Origin: Romboutsia ilealis
Lineage (GTDB): Bacteria; Bacillota; Clostridia; Peptostreptococcales; Peptostreptococcaceae
Assembly (NCBI RefSeq): GCF_900015215.1
Contig: NZ_LN555523.1
Span: 193,336-257,335, forward strand
Reading direction: 5' to 3'
Length of the DNA stretch: 64,000 bases
Position numbers and translations under genes: made by a program. Positions 23,063 to 59,095 of the stretch are shown here, one piece after another; positions within the stretch are counted from its first letter, which is position 1, and every line of letters begins with the position of its first letter. Below the pieces are notes generated by a model. It did no database searches. It was not told the DNA's origin and was given only the letters and a program-made list of their open reading frames with translations.

Positions 23063-23414
23063 GGGGGCGTAAAGGTTTCGACGTGGGTTTGGAACTTGGG
23101 GCTGCGTGTCGTGTTACTCTGGGTCACGTAAAAACTGGGGAACTTAAAATAAACGCAAACGATAATTACGCTTTAGCAGCTTAATAATGCTGCTCGACCC
23201 GCCTCGCCCTCCTGCCGGTTAGGCCTGGTCGTCATTTATGCAGGGAACTACTTTTGGGGTGTCTCGACCAAAAGCGGACTAATTGGGACTGGTCAATCAC
23301 ATAGCCTGCCGCTGGGCGATGTGTGAGACGAGACTTTAGTACAGTTGGCTACACACGTAGATGCAACAGGGAAAAGACTTGCGGACAGGGGTTCGACTCC
23401 CCTCGTCTCCACCA
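23063..23414 (+). ncRNA. ssrA: tmRNA (10Sa RNA)
   Basis: The 5' end GGGGGCG pairs with CGTCTCC before the ACCA end, forming the tRNA-like acceptor stem. The T arm GGTTCGACTCC is intact. The tag frame at 23155-23184 reads ANDNYALAA followed by TAA TAA. The RNA rescues stalled ribosomes with SmpB. The last 17 bases (23398-23414) are the core at which element 1 is inserted; its sequence restores a complete 3' end. Confidence 0.96.
23398..23414 (+). other. Attachment site (left) of element 1
   Basis: TCCCCTCGTCTCCACCA at the end of ssrA is repeated exactly at 32734-32750. The two direct copies bound a segment that carries an integrase immediately inside, the standard layout for integration into tmRNA 3' ends. 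Confidence 0.9.
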
Positions 23415-26261: not shown

Positions 26262-28562
26262 TTGCCTAACAATTTTGAAGTAATAAAAGTTAAAGAATTG
26301 TTTCCAGTAGTTCCAGTATTTAATTACACTAATAAACCAGTAGTACCATGGAAAAAAGATGTTAACAGATTATCTAGGGATTATGAGTTAAAAGGTGTAA
26401 ATGAATATATTGACTATGTAAATAATAAAAATGAAGTTAAAAAAAGTAAAGTAACTGGATATGCATTAATAACTGGTAAAGATAGTGGAATTATGGTGTT
26501 AGATTTAGACCGTAACCATGGAGACGGCTCTAAGGATGGTATAAAAGCATATAAAGAACTTATCGAAAGCTTAAAACTAACACAAGAGGAGCAAAAACAA
26601 GCATTTGATACATTTACTGTAAAAACTCCTAACGGTGGCCTACATTTATATTTTAAGTATAAAGAAGGTTTAAAAAATGATAGCAACAAGGATTTATCAA
26701 TAGATATTAGAACGGATGGAGGACTTATAATTGCTCCTGGCTCACTTAGAAAAATTGGTGAAGATATTAGAGAATATACAGTATATAAAGATAATCCTAT
26801 ATATGATATTCCAATAAAGTTATTTGATAAATTAACTGAGTATTTTGGAGTTAACAAAGTTAAAGGTAATAAACCTAAAGAAACAAATAAAAAGCCTGGT
26901 AGACATCCAAAGAATAAAGAATATTATACAGTTACTAACGAGGGTGGTCGAGATAATGCATTAATTAAATACTTAGGTAGATTAATAACTCAACCAATGT
27001 TTAGAGATATTCACGAGTTGTTACCAATGGCTATGATGTATAACCAATGTTATATAAATCCTCCATTGGATGCTCAAGAAGTAGAAAACAAAGTAAATAG
27101 TATATTATCTTATGCAAAACCAGTTTACTGTAAAGATAATGGTAAAATTATAAACGGCTCTTTGGTTAAATATGTATTAGATAAGTCTCCATCATACATT
27201 AAAGGTAATATGTTATATATCTATAATGAAGAATTAGGAATATATGAATATAAAGATACTAGAGACCAACTAAAGCTATATTATGACCATGTAATTATTG
27301 ATGAAGATATAGACCCTGGTAAAGCTGATAAATTCGCTAAAACAATACACTCAATAGCTGATAATCATAAAGAACTATTTATATATGAAAATAGATATAT
27401 AAACTGTTTAAATGGTGTGATAGATACAGAAACGGATGAGTTATTAGAATTTACTCCACAAATAAAACTAGATACCAAGTTTAATGGTAATTACTATGAT
27501 ATAGATAAGTATAAAGAGGATTATAACAAATCTAAGTTTAAAAGCTTCTTAGAAAATATACTTGATGATGGTACTATATTAACACTACAAGAAGCCTGGG
27601 GAGTTATGTTGTGTCCTAATGCTACCAAAGTGCAACAATGCTTTATATATAAAGGAGAAGGCTCTAATGGTAAGTCTAGTTTATTTGATATACAAACGGC
27701 TTTATTATACGATAAGGATAAATCAGTATGTGGTATAGGCTTAGGTAAATTTGGTGATGAGTTTATAATGGCTATGGCTGAGGGTAGGAGAGTTAATATA
27801 GTTAGGGATGATACCGTAGAAGGTAAAATAAATGGAGTTTTTAAAAGTGCCGTATGTGGTGAAGAAATAACAGTTAATAAGAAAAATAAAGACCATGTGC
27901 AAATGAAGTTTAATATGGCCTGGTTTTATGGTTTAAATAGGATGCCAGTTACTAATGATAAATCGTATGGATTTTTTAGGAGACCTATATTTATACCATT
28001 TAATGTAAGGTTTGGTACAATGGAACAAGTACAAAGAGGAGAAGCTGATAAAATAGGAGTGCCTGGAATAGTAGAGGATATTATATCAAATGAATTAGAT
28101 ATAGTGTTTATGTGGGCATATGAAGGACTTAAAAGGTTAAAGGCTAATAATTGGAAAGTAACACAAAGTGAAGCATCCATCCAGGAAATGGAAGAATATA
28201 AAGAGGAAGCCGACTCAGCATATGCATTTTATAAAAGGGAACTTATAAGAGTACCAGGATATAACCTTCATGCTAAAACATTATATGAAGAATATGAAAA
28301 CTGGTGTCTAATGGAAAAAATAAATAGTCCAATGAATGTAACTCAATTTGGTAGACAGATGGCATCTTATGGACATAAAAAAGGTACTGGGATGGCTCAC
28401 GATATAGATAAACCAGGTAATTCAGTGTTCTTTGGTGTAAATTATAAAAAGAATGTATATATACAAGTAGAAAATACAGAAAAGGTATTTGAAGAAAATA
28501 AGCAAAGTACTTTTATGGATGCAAGCTTCAAACCATCTGATATTGGTAACTCGCCATTTTAA
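26262..28562 (+). CDS. Primase-polymerase / D5-like helicase replication protein
   Basis: The 766-aa protein has a TTG start with GGAGGTGAT upstream. The N-terminus carries a Prim-Pol domain (GYALITGKDSGIMVLDLDRN, then TPNGGLHLYF and SIDIRTDGGLIIAPGS). The middle holds a D5_N-type region, and the C-terminal superfamily 3 helicase has Walker A KGEGSNGKSSLF near residue 470. Such fused proteins prime and unwind DNA for autonomous replication of satellites and plasmids. It is the core replication gene of element 1. Confidence 0.85.
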   Translation: MPNNFEVIKVKELFPVVPVFNYTNKPVVPWKKDVNRLSRDYELKGVNEYIDYVNNKNEVKKSKVTGYALITGKDSGIMVLDLDRNHGDGSKDGIKAYKELIESLKLTQEEQKQAFDTFTVKTPNGGLHLYFKYKEGLKNDSNKDLSIDIRTDGGLIIAPGSLRKIGEDIREYTVYKDNPIYDIPIKLFDKLTEYFGVNKVKGNKPKETNKKPGRHPKNKEYYTVTNEGGRDNALIKYLGRLITQPMFRDIHELLPMAMMYNQCYINPPLDAQEVENKVNSILSYAKPVYCKDNGKIINGSLVKYVLDKSPSYIKGNMLYIYNEELGIYEYKDTRDQLKLYYDHVIIDEDIDPGKADKFAKTIHSIADNHKELFIYENRYINCLNGVIDTETDELLEFTPQIKLDTKFNGNYYDIDKYKEDYNKSKFKSFLENILDDGTILTLQEAWGVMLCPNATKVQQCFIYKGEGSNGKSSLFDIQTALLYDKDKSVCGIGLGKFGDEFIMAMAEGRRVNIVRDDTVEGKINGVFKSAVCGEEITVNKKNKDHVQMKFNMAWFYGLNRMPVTNDKSYGFFRRPIFIPFNVRFGTMEQVQRGEADKIGVPGIVEDIISNELDIVFMWAYEGLKRLKANNWKVTQSEASIQEMEEYKEEADSAYAFYKRELIRVPGYNLHAKTLYEEYENWCLMEKINSPMNVTQFGRQMASYGHKKGTGMAHDIDKPGNSVFFGVNYKKNVYIQVENTEKVFEENKQSTFMDASFKPSDIGNSPF

Positions 28563-31856: not shown

Positions 31857-32345
31857 TATATAGGGGTATACCTATTAATAAGCATAAGTTTTTCGGAGTT
31901 TTTCCAATAAAAAAGGATAAAAAGGCAATATTAGGGCAATGGTGCTTAGTTTTGCTAAGTTTAAATATTTCCAAATTATTTCCTAAATAATGTAAGGTTT
32001 AGTAAGGTACTATAATATATTAGATAATATTATAGTTATATCATAATGATATTATAGGAGAATGTAGGAATATAAACCGAAAAAATAAAATTTATAAATA
32101 GTACCGAAGTATTGCAAATACTAGATTTTATTATAGGGGGTATACCCTATTTTTACGGAAAAAATTAACTAAAAAAGATAAGATTAGGGTAAGGTATGTA
32201 AGATTAGTATAATGAATAACGAGATTTTTACGAGTACCCCAAGATTACCCTAAGGTATATGAAATTTTAATACACCATAAAGGGATAGGTACTAAGATTT
32301 TACTAAGGTATAGGTAGGTTAGGGGTAGGTATATGACTTTAATTA
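31857..32345. other. Non-coding region with palindromes and short repeats; candidate origin or transfer site
   Basis: About 1 kb at the right end of element 1 lacks genes. It holds two related palindromes, GGGGTATACCTAT (31862-31874) and GGGGGTATACCCTAT (32136-32150). It also has many copies of AAGGTA / TAGGTA / TAGGGTAAGGTA between 31990 and 32330, with some on the opposite strand (TACCCTAAGGTA). Iteron-like density next to replication genes suggests an origin or oriT. Confidence 0.45.
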
Positions 32346-32425
32346 ATATAAAAATAAGTGTATAGCTAACAAATGCTAACAAATATAACTTAGAATTTAT
32401 CTATTAAAAACATTAAAATTTTTTA

Positions 32426-32535
32426 TAAAGAGATAGTAAAGATACCTAAAGACACTTTGAAGATACATATAAAGACCCCTAGAACGTAGTAATTGCAATA
32501 GGTAAAGATAGTAAAGATACTAAAGACCCCTAAAA
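32426..32535. repeat. Array of AAAGATACT-type repeats, right arm of element 1
   Basis: Units TAAAGATACC, TAAAGACACT, TGAAGATACA, TAAAGACCCC, TAAAGATAGT, AAAGATACT and AAAGACCCC lie 199-308 bases from the right att site, mirror-imaging the left array at 23631-23750. Confidence 0.7.
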
Positions 32536-32598
32536 GTTATATAAAAAAAATAATTAATTAATTATACATATATTTATATTTTTCAGATGTAAAAAATA

Positions 32599-32620
32599 CC
32601 CCACAACATACCCACAATTA
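32599..32620. promoter_or_regulatory. Candidate integrase arm-type sites, right end
   Basis: CCCACAAC and CCCACAAT in tandem with 11-base spacing, 20 of 22 bases identical to the left-end pair at 23493-23514 and in the same orientation. Confidence 0.5.
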
Positions 32621-32733
32621 TTTCACGATAAAATAATAAATATCAATAAGATATAAAATTATAGAAGGTTAAAAAGTGCTTGTATACTGGTTTATAAAAA
32701 TACATAAAATTAAGTAAAATATATATAATACAT

Positions 32734-32750
32734 TCCCCTCGTCTCCACCA
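32734..32750 (+). other. Attachment site (right) of element 1
   Basis: Exact 17-bp copy of the ssrA 3' end. It continues CCATTGAAAT, as does the copy at 52904, so the bases after ACCA here probably reflect the sequence next to ssrA before element 1 arrived. Confidence 0.9.
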
Positions 32751-32762
32751 TTGAAATCCACT

Positions 32763-32869: not shown

Positions 32870-32967
32870 TATAGGGCAAATAGGGCATATGATTTAAAAA
32901 AATACTTAGTTAGAAAATCGAATTATTATTTTTAGAATTATCTTGACATTAGTGCCCTTAATGCCAT
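32870..32967. repeat. TAGGGCA iterons, remnant of an origin-like region
   Basis: ATAGGGCAAATAGGGCATAT (32870-32889) and AGTGCCCTTAATGCC (32951-32965) reproduce the repeat words and the facing-pair layout of the array at 57542-57763 beside a primase gene. No primase remains here. Confidence 0.45.
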
Positions 32968-32982
32968 TAGAGTTACTATTCT

Positions 32983-33530
32983 ATGTATATAATTAGAATA
33001 AAGAAATATTATTTAGAAGAATTTGTCCTTATAGATCTAGAAAAACATGTATTAAATTATAAAGCAATACCAGATTTAAGCAAGGAATTAAATGAAAGAT
33101 TGAAAGCTAAGTATAATGATAATCATGAAATGTTAATTAACCTTAGAAATAAGTTAGATAAAGTAAATAAGGAAATTGAAAATATACTTAATGCTATAAT
33201 GAGTGGTATAGTAAATAATATGTTAAAAGATAAGTTAGATGAATTAGAGCAAGTTAAGTTAAATTTAGATTTGAAGATAAATGAATTATCTATAGAAAGT
33301 AATGATGTAGATTCAGTAGATATAACAGAGGACAAATTAGAAGTATGTTTAGTAAGTTTAAAGAGTTTGTACTTACTAGGAACTTACCAGAATGTAAAAA
33401 GTTTATAATTGATTATGTTAAAGAAGTAATAGTATATAGAGACCACATTGAAGTGATATTCAATGTGGTCTTTTCTTTTGTTGACAATGAATTAAATCAT
33501 AATGTATATATTACAGTAAATAGAGAATAA
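32983..33530 (+). pseudogene. Large serine recombinase, C-terminal remnant
   Basis: From about 33007 the translation (YLEEFVLIDLEKHVLN, then VNKEIENILNAIMSGIVNNM and KDKLDELEQVKLNLDLKINE) aligns closely with the last 170 residues of the intact recombinase at 49751-51304. The catalytic and zinc-ribbon parts are gone. A frameshift near 33340 separates a final frame-3 part (FSKFKEFVLTRNLPECKKFI to SFVDNELNHN). Coiled-coil region is preserved; the gene is dead. Confidence 0.85.
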
Positions 33531-49750: not shown

Positions 49751-51304
49751 ATGGCAGCGAAGAAAGCAGTAGTATATGCAAGATTTAGTTCAGACAATCA
49801 AAGGGATGAGTCAATAGATGCTCAATTAAGAGCAATCAATGAATATGCAGATAAGAATAATATAAAGATAGTTAATCAGTTCATAGATAGAGCAAAATCA
49901 GCAACATCAGATAAAAGACCGGAGTTTCAAAATATGATTAAATTCTGTGAAGCAGATACAACAGGAATATCTATGGTAATAGTTCATAAGCTAGATAGAT
50001 TTTCTAGAGATAAGTATGATTCAGCTATGTATAAACAGAAATTAAAAGTAAAAGGAATAAGAGTTGTAAGTGTATTAGAGAACTTAGATAACTCACCTGA
50101 ATCTTTAATATTAGAATCGGTTATAGAGGGAATGGCTCAATATTATAGTGCAAACTTAGCGAGAGAAGTTGCTAAAGGTCAAAAAGAAAATGCACTTAAA
50201 GCACTTCATAATGGAGGGGATGCACCATTAGGTTATGATGTAGCACATGATAAAACCTATATAGTTAATGAAGAAGAAGCTCAAGCAGTAAAAATTATAT
50301 TTGATAGATATGTACAAGGATATTCATATAGTAAGATAATAGATGAATTAAATAATCTAGGATATAAGACTAAAAGAGGTAATAAGTTCGGCAAGAATAG
50401 TTTACATGGAATATTGAATAATGAGAAGTATACAGGAGTATATGTATTTAACAAGACCCAGAGAAAAGGTGTAGATGGAAAAAGAAATGGTCATAAGCAA
50501 AAGAGTGATGATGAAATAATAAAGGTAGAAGGTGGTATGCCAGCTATAATTAATAAAGAGATATTTGCACAAGCACAAGAGATGATTCAAAAAAGAAAGA
50601 AAACTCCAGGTGCACATAAAGCAACTACAACATATCTATTAACAGGACTAATTAGATGTGGGGAATGTGGACATGCAATGCAAGGTAATAAAAGAAAGGA
50701 CTCTTATGGAAATGATTATATTTCATATAGATGTGGATGTAGAAAACAAAAGAGGGAATGTAGTAATAGAGAGATAAAAAGAGACTATTTAGAAGAGTTT
50801 ATATTACAGGAACTTGAAAATAACATATTAAATGATGAAGCTATACCAGTTTTAAGTAAGGCATTGAATGAGAAAATGAATGATAAGAATGAAAGTAATG
50901 CAGAGTTACTTAAAAATTTAGAACAAAAGTTAGAGAAAGTAAATAAAGAGATAAATAATATACTAAATGCTATAATGAATGGTATAGTAAATAACATGTT
51001 AAAAGATAAGCTTGATGAGCTGGAACAAGTGAAGCTAAATTTGGATTTAAAAATGAATGAATTAAAGACAGAAAATAAATCTGTAGATAGTGTAGCTATA
51101 ACAGAAGAACAAATAAGAGGTATGTTTTCAAGATTTAAAGATTTTGTACTAGAGAGAAATATACCAGAATGTAAGAAGTTTATAGGAGACTATATAAAGG
51201 AAGTAATCGTATATAAAGACCATGTTGAAGTTGTATTCAATGTGGTCTTTTCTTTTGTTGAGGATAAAGTAAATTATAATATACAGTGTATTCTACATAG
51301 ATGA
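49751..51304 (+). CDS. Large serine recombinase
   Basis: The 517-aa protein has the resolvase catalytic domain with the nucleophile serine in VVYARFSSDNQRDESIDAQL, the conserved arginines in HKLDRFSRDKYD, the recombinase domain (GYSYSKIIDELNNLGYKTKR), a zinc ribbon CGECGHAMQG...CGCRKQKREC, and a long coiled coil (KLEKVNKEINNILNAIMNGI). All parts are present, so it is likely active. It is the probable mobility gene of element 2; its own att site is not identified. The stop overlaps the long frame of the next gene. Confidence 0.93.
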   Translation: MAAKKAVVYARFSSDNQRDESIDAQLRAINEYADKNNIKIVNQFIDRAKSATSDKRPEFQNMIKFCEADTTGISMVIVHKLDRFSRDKYDSAMYKQKLKVKGIRVVSVLENLDNSPESLILESVIEGMAQYYSANLAREVAKGQKENALKALHNGGDAPLGYDVAHDKTYIVNEEEAQAVKIIFDRYVQGYSYSKIIDELNNLGYKTKRGNKFGKNSLHGILNNEKYTGVYVFNKTQRKGVDGKRNGHKQKSDDEIIKVEGGMPAIINKEIFAQAQEMIQKRKKTPGAHKATTTYLLTGLIRCGECGHAMQGNKRKDSYGNDYISYRCGCRKQKRECSNREIKRDYLEEFILQELENNILNDEAIPVLSKALNEKMNDKNESNAELLKNLEQKLEKVNKEINNILNAIMNGIVNNMLKDKLDELEQVKLNLDLKMNELKTENKSVDSVAITEEQIRGMFSRFKDFVLERNIPECKKFIGDYIKEVIVYKDHVEVVFNVVFSFVEDKVNYNIQCILHR

Positions 51305-52903: not shown

Positions 52904-52921
52904 CGTCTCCACCATTGAAAT
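52904..52921 (+). other. Third copy of the ssrA 3'-end attachment sequence
   Basis: CGTCTCCACCATTGAAAT continues past ACCA exactly as at 32740, indicating that both derive from the same ancestral junction. It marks the right end of element 2. Confidence 0.8.
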
Positions 52922-54658: not shown

Positions 54659-54676
54659 CGTCTTCACTAGTGAAAT
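54659..54676 (+). other. Decayed fourth att copy
   Basis: CGTCTTCACTAGTGAAAT differs from CGTCTCCACCATTGAAAT at four positions and is followed, like the others, by a terminator. Confidence 0.55.
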
Positions 54677-54716: not shown

Positions 54717-54916
54717 TGTAAAAAACAATACAAGTAATGATTTAGATTTTCTTAAAACAGTAGTACTAGACTATTCTAGAGATGAATATCATAAAATATA
54801 AGCTATATTAACTAATGAAAATTTAATTATTACTTTAGAAGTAGAATCATTAGAATTTACTATCCAAATCTTAAAAGATTTAGATGCTTTTGAAGAAGAA
54901 GCATTAATTTCCTAGA
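54717..54916 (+). pseudogene. Degenerate reading frame of unknown origin
   Basis: A frame with protein-like composition (NDLDFLKTVVLDYSRDEYHK, stop, AILTNENLIITLEVESLEFT) is broken by an in-frame TAA near 54801 and has no start. No family recognised. The stretch from 54372 to 55000 holds nothing else except the att copy and terminator. Confidence 0.35.
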
Positions 54917-55004
54917 TAAATTTTTATAAAACTAATAATTTCAAATATTTTTTTGAATTAATAAATTAGACTAAGTAAATTTAAGGTTTATTTCTCAATA
55001 AAAT

Positions 55005-55131
55005 ATAGTATAATATATGTATATAAAGTAAAAAAGAAATTACAATCTACGGAAATAGAGTGTGATTTCTATGTAATCAATTTGATATTAATCGTTTGAA
55101 TCACTCTTATTGCCAGTAAGAGTGATTTTTA
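55005..55131 (+). ncRNA. Candidate antitoxin RNA of a type I toxin-antitoxin module
   Basis: A TATAAT box near 55010 would start a plus-strand RNA near 55020. It would end at the perfect hairpin AATCACTCTTA (55099-55109) / TAAGAGTGATT (55117-55127) with five Ts. Its last ~45 bases are antisense to the 3' end of the toxin frame on the other strand. Convergent overlap of this kind is the layout of C. difficile type I modules. Confidence 0.5.
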
Positions 55132-55210
55132 ATTTATCGTAAATAAAGGCTCCAAATATGCTAATTAATATAGCATCAGAGTTATTTAATAATAATTTTA
55201 AAATTTCCAT
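55088..55210 (-). CDS. Candidate type I toxin, small membrane protein (40 aa)
   Basis: On the minus strand ATG 55210 follows AGGAGGTGGAAGT. It encodes MEILKLLLNNSDAILISIFG, AFIYDKLKITLTGNKSDSND: one hydrophobic helix then a charged tail, typical of small pore-forming toxins. A promoter TTGGAA-18-TAAAAT (complement of 55291-55320) lies about 75 bases upstream of a long leader. The leader contains TAAGAGTGAT, complementary to ATCACTCTTA in the 3' part of the same mRNA, allowing a 5'-3' closure that could hide the ribosome site. Confidence 0.55.
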   Translation of the reverse strand: MEILKLLLNNSDAILISIFGAFIYDKLKITLTGNKSDSND

Positions 55211-55429
55211 ACTTCCACCTCCTTCCTATTTGGAAGTAGGTTTAATTCTTAGTATAGAAACCATCACTCTTAGATTGTAATTTCTATTGTATTTTAACAT
55301 AAACTACATAATCATTCCAATAAATATTTAATCATAGATATGATTTTTGAGAATAGTATCAATCATTGGAATATACTAAAATAGAGTAAGAGAACTACTA
55401 ATATATAATGATTAGTAGTTCTTTTTTTA

Positions 55430-55566
55430 CGCTTAAGGATATTATAATACTTAAAAAAATGTGGATAAATTCTGAATGTAAGTAATATCAACAAATTGGT
55501 TTTGAGCGTAAAAAGATTTTGAGCAACGGACGAAATCGTTGGCGATATGAGCGAAGCGAATTTTTT
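55430..55566. repeat. Dispersed repeat, copy 2
   Basis: It starts ACGCTTAAGGATATTATAAT and contains GAATGTAAGTAATATC and TTGGTTTTGAGCGTAAAAAG. ACGCTTAA and TTGAGCGT are inverted to each other, so the 85-base core has inverted ends. A tail AGCGAAGCGAATTTTT is shared with the copy at 8438-8655. The first 46 bases from TTTTTTACGC are identical to 63659-63704. Confidence 0.7.
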
Positions 55567-55694
55567 ATACAAACAAATTATAATATAAAATTTTCTATAA
55601 AAAACTTTATACAAATACTTTATTATACTTTGACAACATTTCTCTGATATCATCTAACCATAAAACAAAACGAAACAAAAAGGAGAAATCAAAC

Positions 55695-55895
55695 ATGAAC
55701 TACAAACTAAACACAGAACTAATAAAATCAAAAATGCTACAAAAAGGCTACTCAATCACAAAACTAGCATCAATAAGCCAAATATCAAAATCAACAGCCG
55801 CAAGAGCAGTAAAAGGACAAGGAACTCCAAGACCCAAAACCATATACAAAATCTCAAAATCACTAGACATAGACATAAAAGAAATAACACTATAA
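55695..55895 (+). CDS. HTH regulator (66 aa) of a satellite-like remnant
   Basis: A single helix-turn-helix domain (MLQKGYSITKLASISQISKS, then TAARAVKGQGTPRPKTIYKI) with AAAGGAG upstream. It precedes the primase gene by 19 bases. Codons are unusually C-ending (AAC, ATC, TAC, CTA) compared with the rest of the window. Confidence 0.75.
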   Translation: MNYKLNTELIKSKMLQKGYSITKLASISQISKSTAARAVKGQGTPRPKTIYKISKSLDIDIKEITL

Positions 55896-55914
55896 ATCAA
55901 AGGGGGGGATAAAC

Positions 55915-57522
55915 ATGTTCAAAACATATATACAAGAAATAAACAACATAAGAGACTTAGAAAGTGTAATAAACTACTACTATCCAAACCAACTAAAAAG
56001 AAACAAAATGAGCTGCCCATTTCACAAAGACAAAACACCAAGCTTTTCAATAGTAGACAAAGGAAATGGAGCTTTCTACAAATGCTTTTCTTGTAGTGAA
56101 GGTGGAGACATAATAAAATTCATTCAAAAAATAGAGAACATACCATTCATACAAGCATTACAAAAAGCTTATGAAATACTAAACAAACCCTTGAATTTAC
56201 CAAACATAAAAACTAATACATCAAAATCATTAAACAAAGAAAACTTAATAAATTTTTATAATGATAAATATGAAAAATCCCTACAAGAAGGTGACTTAGA
56301 CAAAGCTTTTGAATTAAGTTGTAAAAGTGATGAAGTAACCAATAAAAAATATAACATCGTATATCCTTTCGTAAATAAAAAAGGTGAACCTATGAAAATA
56401 TGGGACAACTTAAATGAAGTACTAAAAGCAAACAACATACAAGCTTATTATAACGAGATAACCAAAGATGTTGAAATAGATGGATTAGATGTAAGTAATG
56501 GAGATAACCAACTTGTAGAAATTCACTCATTATGCTCAAAGTGTGGATTTAATGTTAATCTTCATATGATTGATAAATTTATAGGAATAATAGCAGAATC
56601 AAATCCTAAAAATCCAGTGGCAGATTATTTAAGTGAATCTTATATGAACTTTGATGGAAACTATGAATATATACAAAAACTATGTGATGCAATTATTACT
56701 CCAAAAGATTATAGTCCTATATTAAAGAAGACACTTATAACTAAGTGGTTAATAAATACGGCAATGATACCTTTTAATGATGGAGATAAAAATATTGAAG
56801 GCATACTTACACTTCAAGGAAAGCAAGGAATCGGTAAAACAAGGCTTATTAAAAAACTAATACCAATATACGTAAAAACAGGATTAGAGTTAGATCCAAG
56901 TGATAAAGATAAAGTATATCAATGTATAAAATACTGGGTAGCAGAACTTGGTGAACTTGATTCAACATTAAAGAGAGACTTGGCTAAACTTAAAGCTTTT
57001 ATAACAGAATCAAGTGATGAGTTTAGAAGACCATATGCTATGAAACCTATGGTATATCCAAGAAGAACATCTTTTTATGCAACGGTAAACAATGGAGATT
57101 TCTTAAAGGATGACACTGGAAACAGAAGATATTGGGTAATACCTGTGGAAAAAATCGATTTTAATATAATAGATAACTTAGATATAAATATGTTATGGGG
57201 AGAGGTAATGCATTTAAAAGAAGATTATAATATTAAGCATTATTTAGAAAAGGATGAATTAGAACTACTAAATAGTAGTAATGAAGATTTTAAAATATCT
57301 TTAAATGTTGAACTTATAGTTGAAAGGGAATTTGATTGGGAAAGTGACAAGTCAAATTGGAAGTGGAAACCAACAGCAGATATATGTAGTAAGTTAAATA
57401 TAAATTCTACAAGTTCATTAAAGACAAGTTTATTTAAATATGGTGCACAGTATAAAAAGAGTAATGGAAGAAGAGGATATATTACTCCACCATATAAGTG
57501 TCCTTTATTTGATGCCATGTAG
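55915..57522 (+). CDS. Primase (CHC2 zinc finger) - VirE-type helicase fusion
   Basis: The 535-aa protein has a DnaG-like zinc finger (MSCPFHKDKTPSF...FYKCFSCSEGGD: CPFH and CFSC ligands, residues about 33-62). A virulence-associated-E helicase follows with Walker A LQGKQGIGKTRLIKKL near residue 300 and a WVAELGELD Walker B. Such fusions replicate phage satellites and plasmids. An iteron array lies directly downstream. The first ~180 codons use C-ending codons while the rest is A/T-ending, suggesting a chimaera. Confidence 0.85.
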   Translation: MFKTYIQEINNIRDLESVINYYYPNQLKRNKMSCPFHKDKTPSFSIVDKGNGAFYKCFSCSEGGDIIKFIQKIENIPFIQALQKAYEILNKPLNLPNIKTNTSKSLNKENLINFYNDKYEKSLQEGDLDKAFELSCKSDEVTNKKYNIVYPFVNKKGEPMKIWDNLNEVLKANNIQAYYNEITKDVEIDGLDVSNGDNQLVEIHSLCSKCGFNVNLHMIDKFIGIIAESNPKNPVADYLSESYMNFDGNYEYIQKLCDAIITPKDYSPILKKTLITKWLINTAMIPFNDGDKNIEGILTLQGKQGIGKTRLIKKLIPIYVKTGLELDPSDKDKVYQCIKYWVAELGELDSTLKRDLAKLKAFITESSDEFRRPYAMKPMVYPRRTSFYATVNNGDFLKDDTGNRRYWVIPVEKIDFNIIDNLDINMLWGEVMHLKEDYNIKHYLEKDELELLNSSNEDFKISLNVELIVEREFDWESDKSNWKWKPTADICSKLNINSTSSLKTSLFKYGAQYKKSNGRRGYITPPYKCPLFDAM

Positions 57523-57541
57523 ATAGCTTTATGAGACTGTA

Positions 57542-57763
57542 GTGCCCTGATTTTTTAGAAAAAATAATTAAAACTAGGGCAGTAGGGCAGTAACTTTTAT
57601 ATAGAACACTATAAAATTTAGTTAGTGCCCTGTAGTAAAAGTAAGTAATTTCAACAGATATATATCCTTAGGGCATTTGGGGCATCAAAATTACAATTTC
57701 TTATAAAATAATGAAATATATTAATTTTAAGGTTTGATAAAATAGGTGCCCTGATGCCCTAAT
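57542..57763. repeat. GGGCA iteron array, candidate replication origin
   Basis: Copies of AGGGCA / TGCCCT: GTGCCCTGA (57542), AGGGCAGTAGGGCAG (57576), TGCCCTG (57626), AGGGCATTTGGGGCAT (57670), GTGCCCTGATGCCCTAA (57746). They lie on both strands and often in close pairs, immediately after the primase-helicase gene. This is the place of the origin in satellite replicons. The 275-base gap holds nothing else. Confidence 0.6.
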
Positions 57764-57797
57764 CATAGTTTTTAATAATTATAATAGATTAAACATA

Positions 57798-58430
57798 TTA
57801 ATGTAATAGCTGATTAACCATATATTTATTATCGTTTGTTATATAAACTCTGTTTACTCTTTTAGTTAAGCAACAAAGTATTTCGTGATCTATTGTACCC
57901 ATCTTACTTGATATATCACCTATTCTTATTCCATCTATGTCACCTATTAAGATAACTTCATCTTCCATATTAACATCAAGATCATTTGGAACTTCAATCA
58001 TAGTTTGATCCATGCATATTCTTACTACTATATTTAATAATCTACCATTTATAAATGCTTGAGGATTTTTTTGTGTTCTAGGGAAACTATCTGCATAACC
58101 AACAGGTAATGTGGCTATTTTTGTATCTTCATTTGCTGTATATGTTCCAGAATAACTAACGCTAGTTTCCTTTTCTATAGTCTTTATGTTACTAACTATA
58201 GCTTTTAATTCTAAAGCTGTTTTTAGTTTTATATCTCTGCTAACTTCAGATGATGGGTAAGGTCCATATAAAGAGATTCCTAATCTAACCATGTTGAAAT
58301 CACATTCTCTTAAATCTAAAATTGCAGCACTATTTGATACGTGTTTTATTGGGATATTTAAGTTAGCCTCTTCATAATGCATTTATAACTCTGTTGTATT
58401 TCTTTATTTGCTCATAAGAAGTATTACTAA
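57798..58430 (-). pseudogene. Alanine racemase, C-terminal remnant
   Basis: A 194-codon open frame reads HVSNSAAILDLRECDFNMVR, TSVSYSGTYTANEDTKIATL (with the catalytic tyrosine), NIVVRICMDQTMIEVPNDLD and GDISSKMGTIDHEILCCLTK, the C-terminal half of Alr. The upstream sequence continues in another frame as SYEQIKKYNRVINAL and then decays near 58430. The PLP-lysine half is missing, so it cannot be an active racemase. No signs of mobility are seen in the gene itself. Confidence 0.85.
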
Positions 58431-58797: not shown

Positions 58798-58838
58798 TAA
58801 AAAGGTTACTCCATAAATAAATGAGTAACCTTTTATAA
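58798..58838. terminator. Bidirectional-type terminator
   Basis: AAAAGGTTACTC and GAGTAACCTTTT flank an 11-base loop, with A/T-runs on both sides. It ends the integrase remnant and anything coming from the left. Confidence 0.75.
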
Positions 58839-59095
58839 TGCAAAAATTTCATTAAGCTTTTCTATAGCTTCTAATTTAGTATCTTTCATAACATGAGTAT
58901 AGATACCTAACGTAATGCTAATATCGGAATGTCCCATTAATACCTGAACCGTTTTAGGTGGAACATTGGCCTTAAATAGTCTAGTAGCATAAGTATGTCT
59001 TAATCAATGGAATTTAATAGGCTCGATATTAATTTTAGTTAAAATACTTTTTAAATTTTTAGCTGTTTTTTTATCATCTATAGAACGATTAACAC
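58833..59095 (-). pseudogene. Tyrosine integrase, C-terminal remnant
   Basis: The minus-strand translation (IDDKKTAKNLKSILTKINIE, then PIKFH, stop, LRHTYATRLFKANVPPKTVQ, then VLMGHSDISITLGIYTHVMK) is closely similar to the last 90 residues of the element 1 integrase. The alanine codon before LRHTY is replaced by TGA. Catalytic HxxR and tyrosine remain, but the N-terminal part is gone. Confidence 0.85.

Follow-up and report, generated by a model that had tools for sequence, protein, structure and literature searches.

A word array following a CHC2-VapE gene in Romboutsia ilealis as the probable, PICI-type replication origin of a compact HTH-VapE cassette

A 64-kb stretch of the Romboutsia ilealis genome (contig 1, 193336-257335), hereafter the window, carries an array of short repeated words after a gene of the VapE family. 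Our main finding is that this array is very probably the replication origin of a compact cassette made up of an HTH gene, a VapE gene and the array itself (HTH-VapE-ori), and that it would work like a SaPI/PICI origin. We favor this reading because of the position and layout of the array, the constraint on gene and words, the joint exchange of the word and the C-terminal part of the protein, and the recurrence of such arrays at other VapE genes. Indeed, the iteron and origin reading of a preliminary description of this DNA is well supported by sequence comparison. In the mechanism that we propose, the C-terminal domain of the CHC2-VapE protein would bind the AGGGCA words, helicase rings would assemble at both oppositely oriented word sets, the 62-bp AT-rich spacer would melt, the AAA+ domain would unwind the DNA, and synthesis would be started by a primase, either the protein's own or that of the host; the HTH protein probably controls expression.

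Table 1. Coordinates of the cassette, the word arrays and associated features (positions in the window unless a contig is named)
Feature	Position	Strand	Remarks
att-like tmRNA 3'-end copy	32740-32752	+	exact CGTCTCCACCATT; 120 bp left of second module
Second module	32873-32965	.	AGGGCA 32873 and 32882, AT-rich spacer (17% GC), TGCCCT 32953, TGCC 32962; without VapE gene
Serine recombinase remnant, 3' part	32983-33530	+	tblastn, 63-67% identity to residues 342-517; like the large one at 49751-51304
Further exact att-like copy	52904-52916	+	left of the segment holding the cassette
HTH gene (66 aa)	55695-55895	+	Pfam HTH_3 4.4e-10; PHROGs repressor families, 1e-6 range
CHC2 zinc finger and VapE helicase gene (535 aa)	55915-57522	+	Pfam VapE-like 1.3e-43, Zn_ribbon_DnaG 8.1e-19
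Exact AGGGCA/TGCCCT words	57543(-), 57576(+), 57584(+), 57626(-), 57670(+), 57747(-), 57755(-)		word search
GGGCA with preceding G	57680	+	word search
Outer iteron set	57543-57631	.	TGCCCT 57543, AGGGCA 57576 and 57584, TGCCCT 57626
Core, proposed origin	57670-57760	.	AGGGCA 57670, GGGCA 57680, spacer 57685-57746, TGCCCT 57747 and 57755; conserved in four arrays
Second VapE gene, own genome	contig 1, 1279055-1279708	-	ten GGTAAC/GTTACC words at its stop

The two genes of the cassette are 19 bp apart. The HTH gene is its probable control gene, and the 535-aa CHC2-VapE protein is our proposed origin-binding initiator. Its membership in the SaPI Rep/VapE family is seen in the Pfam match (Table 1) and in a match of residues 272-413 to PDB 7pds_A (E 1.2e-15), an entry entitled 'Similar to D. 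nodosus vapE', which we take to be a SaPI Rep. Pfam detects no catalytic primase domain in the protein. Within the genus the gene is under purifying selection (dN/dS 0.05-0.09). Beside the cassette we saw neither an intact integrase nor a recognized satellite gene, and no capsid, terminase or tail family matched among the window proteins scanned, which were a subset of the ORFs (Pfam 9, NCBIfam 7, PADLOC 6, PHROGs 10).

Several other features of the neighborhood were recorded. On the reverse strand 3' of the array lies an alanine racemase of which only the C-terminal half is present (57798-58382; TIGR00492 positions 192-368 of 369), and on the same strand 58836-59009 is a remnant with integrase-like C-terminal sequence and an in-frame stop, presumably of the tyrosine integrase family. 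The segment neighboring the cassette contains KwaB- and KwaA-like genes of the Kiwa anti-phage defense (51301-52876; PADLOC E 7e-13 and 5e-14), flanked by a serine recombinase on one side and the 52904 att-like copy on the other. An ORF at 40814-42550 matches a type I restriction enzyme in part (profile positions 436-701 of 1029) and is perhaps truncated. The stretch at 55040-55290 is bounded by inverted repeats, has no Rfam match up to E 1, and resembles a small type I toxin-antitoxin locus.

The array begins directly 3' of the proposed initiator gene, its first word lying 20 bp past the stop, as in SaPI/PICI elements. At least eight AGGGCA/TGCCCT words had been counted there previously; eight GGGCA words in two-strand pairs do follow the gene (57543-57760), but only seven are exact AGGGCA/TGCCCT, the eighth being GGGGCA. 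The core consists of two tandem words, a 62-bp AT-rich spacer (14.5% GC) and two inverted tandem words, so that oppositely oriented iteron sets surround an AT-rich stretch (57670-57760), which is the SaPI/PICI layout. The word as such is not enriched: its total of 14 in the window is not above that of shuffles (mean 12.1). Its clustering is exceptional, with seven words in 220 bp against at most three in 300 dinucleotide shuffles. The array is also the lowest-p 300-bp hexamer window of the 64 kb (p 8.5e-15; none of 2112 other windows is better), in tests that used hexamers only, that is, one word length, with thresholds chosen by the analyst. In the 2.59-Mb genome the pattern GGGCA-N3-5-GGGCA-N50-80-TGCC occurs only at this array and at a site at 32.9 kb, and the backward control gave 0.

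Close homologues of the 535-aa protein are present in five of 61 genomes, its own included; the others are G003 (97%), G001 (93%), [Eubacterium] tenue (63%) and Faecalimicrobium dakarense (61%). The family search gave a match at E 1e-40 or better in nine of 71 genomes, a contig scan of genomes gave three loci, all among those of the genome search, and no VapE relative turned up in either of two viral contig scans. G003 and G001, which belong to the same genus, retain the AGGGCA array beside the gene, and word positions are conserved across the three genomes of the genus. When four arrays were compared (that of the window, the gene-side arrays of G003 and G001, and a solo array of G003), 42 of 48 word columns were conserved versus 108 of 173 outside the words (Fisher p 8e-4); for G/C columns only, the figures were 28 of 33 versus 8 of 31 (p 3e-6).

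The two more distant homologues carry another word. The preliminary description had expected the AGGGCA words to follow homologous genes; they are absent after the VapE genes of E. tenue and F. dakarense, but AGTACA-type words are found there in a comparable layout, with three tandem forward words, an AT-rich stretch, and two reverse words at a distance of about 147 bp from the forward words. This is what co-evolving initiator and origin predict. The cassette common to these two hosts extends over 2.2 kb: it begins some 120 bp before the HTH gene, which both keep, and ends just past the array; the F. dakarense VapE gene is devoid of roughly a quarter kilobase of its 5' part. At the site corresponding to that of E. 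tenue, the relative G076 has an HTH remnant and a deletion of the VapE gene, and no clean empty site was seen there. For the F. dakarense cassette, no empty site was found in the sister genome, where the flanking gene is absent.

Word and initiator change together. The last 95 residues of VapE are identical at 40 of 94 positions between the AGGGCA and AGTACA groups, versus 158 of 210 in the helicase core; within the word groups, C-terminal identity is 87-94 of 95 and 80 of 94. A second VapE gene of the R. ilealis genome has a word of its own, GGTAAC, clustered at its stop (p 3.6e-19, the best in 19 kb); the word therefore tracks the initiator rather than the host, and we dropped the idea that AGGGCA is a host motif. 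This second gene is a convenient internal control. SaPI Rep is reported to recognize its downstream origin via its C-terminal domain (PMC7581432), and the covariation of word and C-terminal part fits recognition of the iterons by this domain. A model of the C-terminal domain shows its elements in a winged-helix-like order, at pLDDT 62.1 and with no significant PDB match; the full-length VapE model is poor (pLDDT 43.6) and unfit for structure search.

Arrays of this kind also occur apart from a VapE gene. In the window, the region downstream of ssrA (23063-23414) looks like a tandem accretion of elements, since exact att-like copies of the tmRNA 3' end follow the gene at 32740 and 52904; a third att-like copy, at 54659, has three mismatches and is within chance. 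It had previously been proposed that the same words recur at 32870-32965, adjoining an att copy and with the primase gene absent, and the layout, the att copy and the absence of VapE were all confirmed. Three exact words lie within 90 bp at 32.87-32.96 kb, a density that none of 300 shuffles reaches (maximum two); tblastn finds no trace of a VapE protein at 32-34 kb, and the module is flanked by the att copy and a recombinase remnant. It shares only words and spacing with the main array, and we dropped it as a DNA relative of the latter, the two sequences not being alignable.

The further proposal that this module is the abandoned origin of a related satellite is plausible from its layout, its att copy and its VapE-less state, but its sequence does not align with the main array, a satellite is unsupported by the scanned proteins, and 'abandoned' is one reading among several. 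Most likely, the module would be the origin of another element with the same word specificity, whose initiator gene was lost. It is possible that it instead belongs to the neighboring prim-pol element (26262-28562), or that it has been retained, either as a decoy or as an origin without rep that is served in trans. A P4-family primase/helicase is indeed encoded in the segment left of the 32740 att copy, other solo arrays exist (a whole one in G003, a core in G001), and lambda replication is reportedly blocked by ectopic lambda origins (PMC4488673). However, an att copy stands between the module and the prim-pol element, which are more than 4 kb apart, and one word out of four is incomplete (TGCC), consistent with decay. 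The first att-bounded segment, besides the P4-family prim-pol/helicase at 26262-28562, has short AT-rich tandem repeats at 32000-32740, just before the att copy; the two together are possibly an unrelated replicon.

Among the genomes of the genus with solo arrays, G001 carries a direct repeat of 157 bp with the core in it; its copies, 99.4% identical, lie about 2.5 kb apart around the HTH-VapE unit, and an att-like site follows the upstream copy. In G003, a whole array without VapE lies just 3' of an aldo-keto reductase gene; in the R. ilealis genome this gene is preceded by a fragment of the tmRNA 3' end and has no array, and there is likewise no array at the G002 aldo-keto reductase gene. 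Rep-less predicted origins thus appear to exist in the genus, some at or near att sites, perhaps as remnants, hitch-hikers or decoys, and VapE-less copies could act as decoys or be used in trans.

To place the array in a wider setting, we surveyed 28 VapE loci from family genomes, plasmids and phages. Of the plasmid records, 17 of 19 matches were taken (H16 and H19 were left out), and of the phage records, four of 75; L080, a near-copy of plasmid pTM2 whose gene reaches the contig end, was left out, and L074 was kept though its match covers the zinc finger only. Close relatives among the loci are window/L039, L075/L097, L096/L104, L077/L105 and L098/L101. At 15 of the 28 loci, the top-ranking 300-bp hexamer cluster in the record begins in a zone reaching from -60 to +300 relative to the VapE stop (window, L039, L041, L075, L076, L078, L081, L082, L095, L096, L097, L099 with a weak word, L103, L104 and L107). 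At the 13 others it does not. Two of these have a cluster in the zone that ranks behind other windows, namely 14 of 644 in L040 and 4 of 645 in L079. Five have a strong array near but outside the zone: 12 words lie 1.3 kb on in L073, the array is at +0.9 kb in L100, and in L077, L105 and L102 it falls within the VapE gene, in the 3' part. L077 and L102, with the array within the VapE gene itself, are cyanobacterial plasmids. The remaining six (L074, L098, L101, L106, L108 and L109) have no cluster in the zone; in L108, eight GGTGAC words are located 2.7 kb further on, and clusters of six words are situated about 2 kb upstream in L098 and L101.

A more stringent test asked for paired words, a gap and inverted paired words. 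Such a paired core lies between -700 and +1600 of the VapE stop in 15 of 23 loci and is lacking in the other eight, with a shuffle mean of at most 0.03; the positive loci include plasmids of Clostridia, Gammaproteobacteria and Cyanobacteria, and only one locus (L102, two hits) has a paired core outside this interval. As a control, 171,246 bases of 22 other loci gave a single core, that of the G003 solo array. An additional word located 42-46 bp before the core, a feature noticed post hoc, is present in the window (45 bp), L082 (43), L073 (46), L078 (44), L096 (43) and L107 (42), that is, in arrays from Clostridia, Gammaproteobacteria and one phage; L075, L040 and L076 do not have it. At the small end of the range is a Microcystis plasmid of 3.1 kb, whose annotation lists nothing but VapE and a small hypothetical protein; nine words follow its VapE gene.

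This recurrence raises the broader idea that VapE with an iteron origin is a general, self-sufficient bacterial replicon spread over several phyla, and no hallmark of PICIs, the rep-less copies of Romboutsia, kept next to att sites or host genes, acting in trans as non-autonomous hitch-hikers or as decoys that would titrate an initiator coming in. On this view, elements with VapE and the iteron geometry would comprise plasmids, phages and chromosomal cassettes, and would share paired words, a core gap of mostly 63-95 bp and, often, the outer word 42-46 bp away. We advance this idea tentatively and regard it as somewhat doubtful.

The main rival reading of the array itself is a stem-loop origin of the pRN1 type: the region would act as a DNA or RNA stem-loop, be it a hairpin origin like that of the archaeal plasmid pRN1 or an RNA element following the gene, and the words would be hairpin arms. 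pRN1 is described as having a required stem-loop downstream of its primase-helicase (PMC4234260), and single-strand folding is strong here, with z of -4.30 for the window array and -3.27, -4.72 and -4.82 for three others. However, the arrays fold well because inverted words must, and a hairpin needs no same-strand tandem repetition at 7-11 bp. Among four sequences, 34 of 145 scored cells outside the words show broken pairing and two show changes on both sides; for word pairs the broken cells number 5 of 72. In addition, Rfam gave no match up to E 1 at 54900-58400, and no terminator pattern was found. We consider a stem-loop element improbable. That the words serve as operators, bound by the HTH protein or some other regulator, and not as an origin, is more improbable still: short inverted sites in several copies are typical of operators as well, the cassette includes a small HTH gene, and the HTH sequence too differs between the AGGGCA and AGTACA groups, but the array is positioned after the operon and not at its promoter, the HTH gene is kept in E. 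tenue and F. dakarense where the word has changed together with the VapE C-terminal part, and arrays also follow VapE genes with no such HTH neighbor (Microcystis plasmid).

Read as an origin, the array belongs with the PICI-type origins already described. The same initiator-ori layout has been reported for PICIs (PMC6092414), where, according to a figure legend, deletion of pri or ori significantly lowers the maintenance of a cloned EcCICFT073 pri-ori plasmid; the paper states that this organization is absent from every other known bacterial replicon. As in the SaPI/PICI rep-ori regions presented in PMC6092414 and PMC7581432, an initiator helicase gene precedes two oppositely oriented iteron sets flanking an AT-rich stretch. 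Unlike in the elements presented there, the protein carries a CHC2 zinc finger at its N terminus, the cassette that different hosts have in common comprises only HTH, VapE and ori, no intact integrase adjoins it, no packaging gene was seen among the scanned proteins, and rep-less arrays persist in the genus. We therefore do not assign the element itself to the PICIs, whose phage-linked defining features were not seen among the scanned proteins.

Three other systems are comparable. SCCmec Cch2, whose C-terminal domain is reported to bind direct repeats just downstream of its gene at a putative origin (PMC7581432), resembles the cassette but is described there with only three iterons and separate priming proteins. 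pRN1 combines a repressor and primase-helicase operon with an origin just downstream, about 3 kb in all (PMC4234260); its origin, however, is a required stem-loop, and the abstract of that paper does not mention tandem iterons. The 8.2-kb plasmid pTM2 of Terrisporobacter mayombei encodes a CHC2-VapE protein 44.5% identical to ours and has 12 GGGACA words with the same paired core, but its array lies 1.3 kb past the gene and the plasmid encodes a phage capsid protein. Among the open-licence papers listed by our searches, none seemed by title and abstract to treat VapE as a plasmid initiator with iterons. New aspects here seem to be the host group, a cassette of nothing but HTH, VapE and ori, the predicted solo origins and the spread to small plasmids.

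The presence of this organization in plasmids, one phage and chromosomal cassettes suggests that it is wider than PICIs. Our survey also suggests that inspecting the DNA that follows a VapE gene is often enough to identify the word, which offers a simple route to predict initiator-origin pairs and to probe their specificity via C-terminal domain swaps. Finally, the solo arrays provide a concrete test case for origin decoys.
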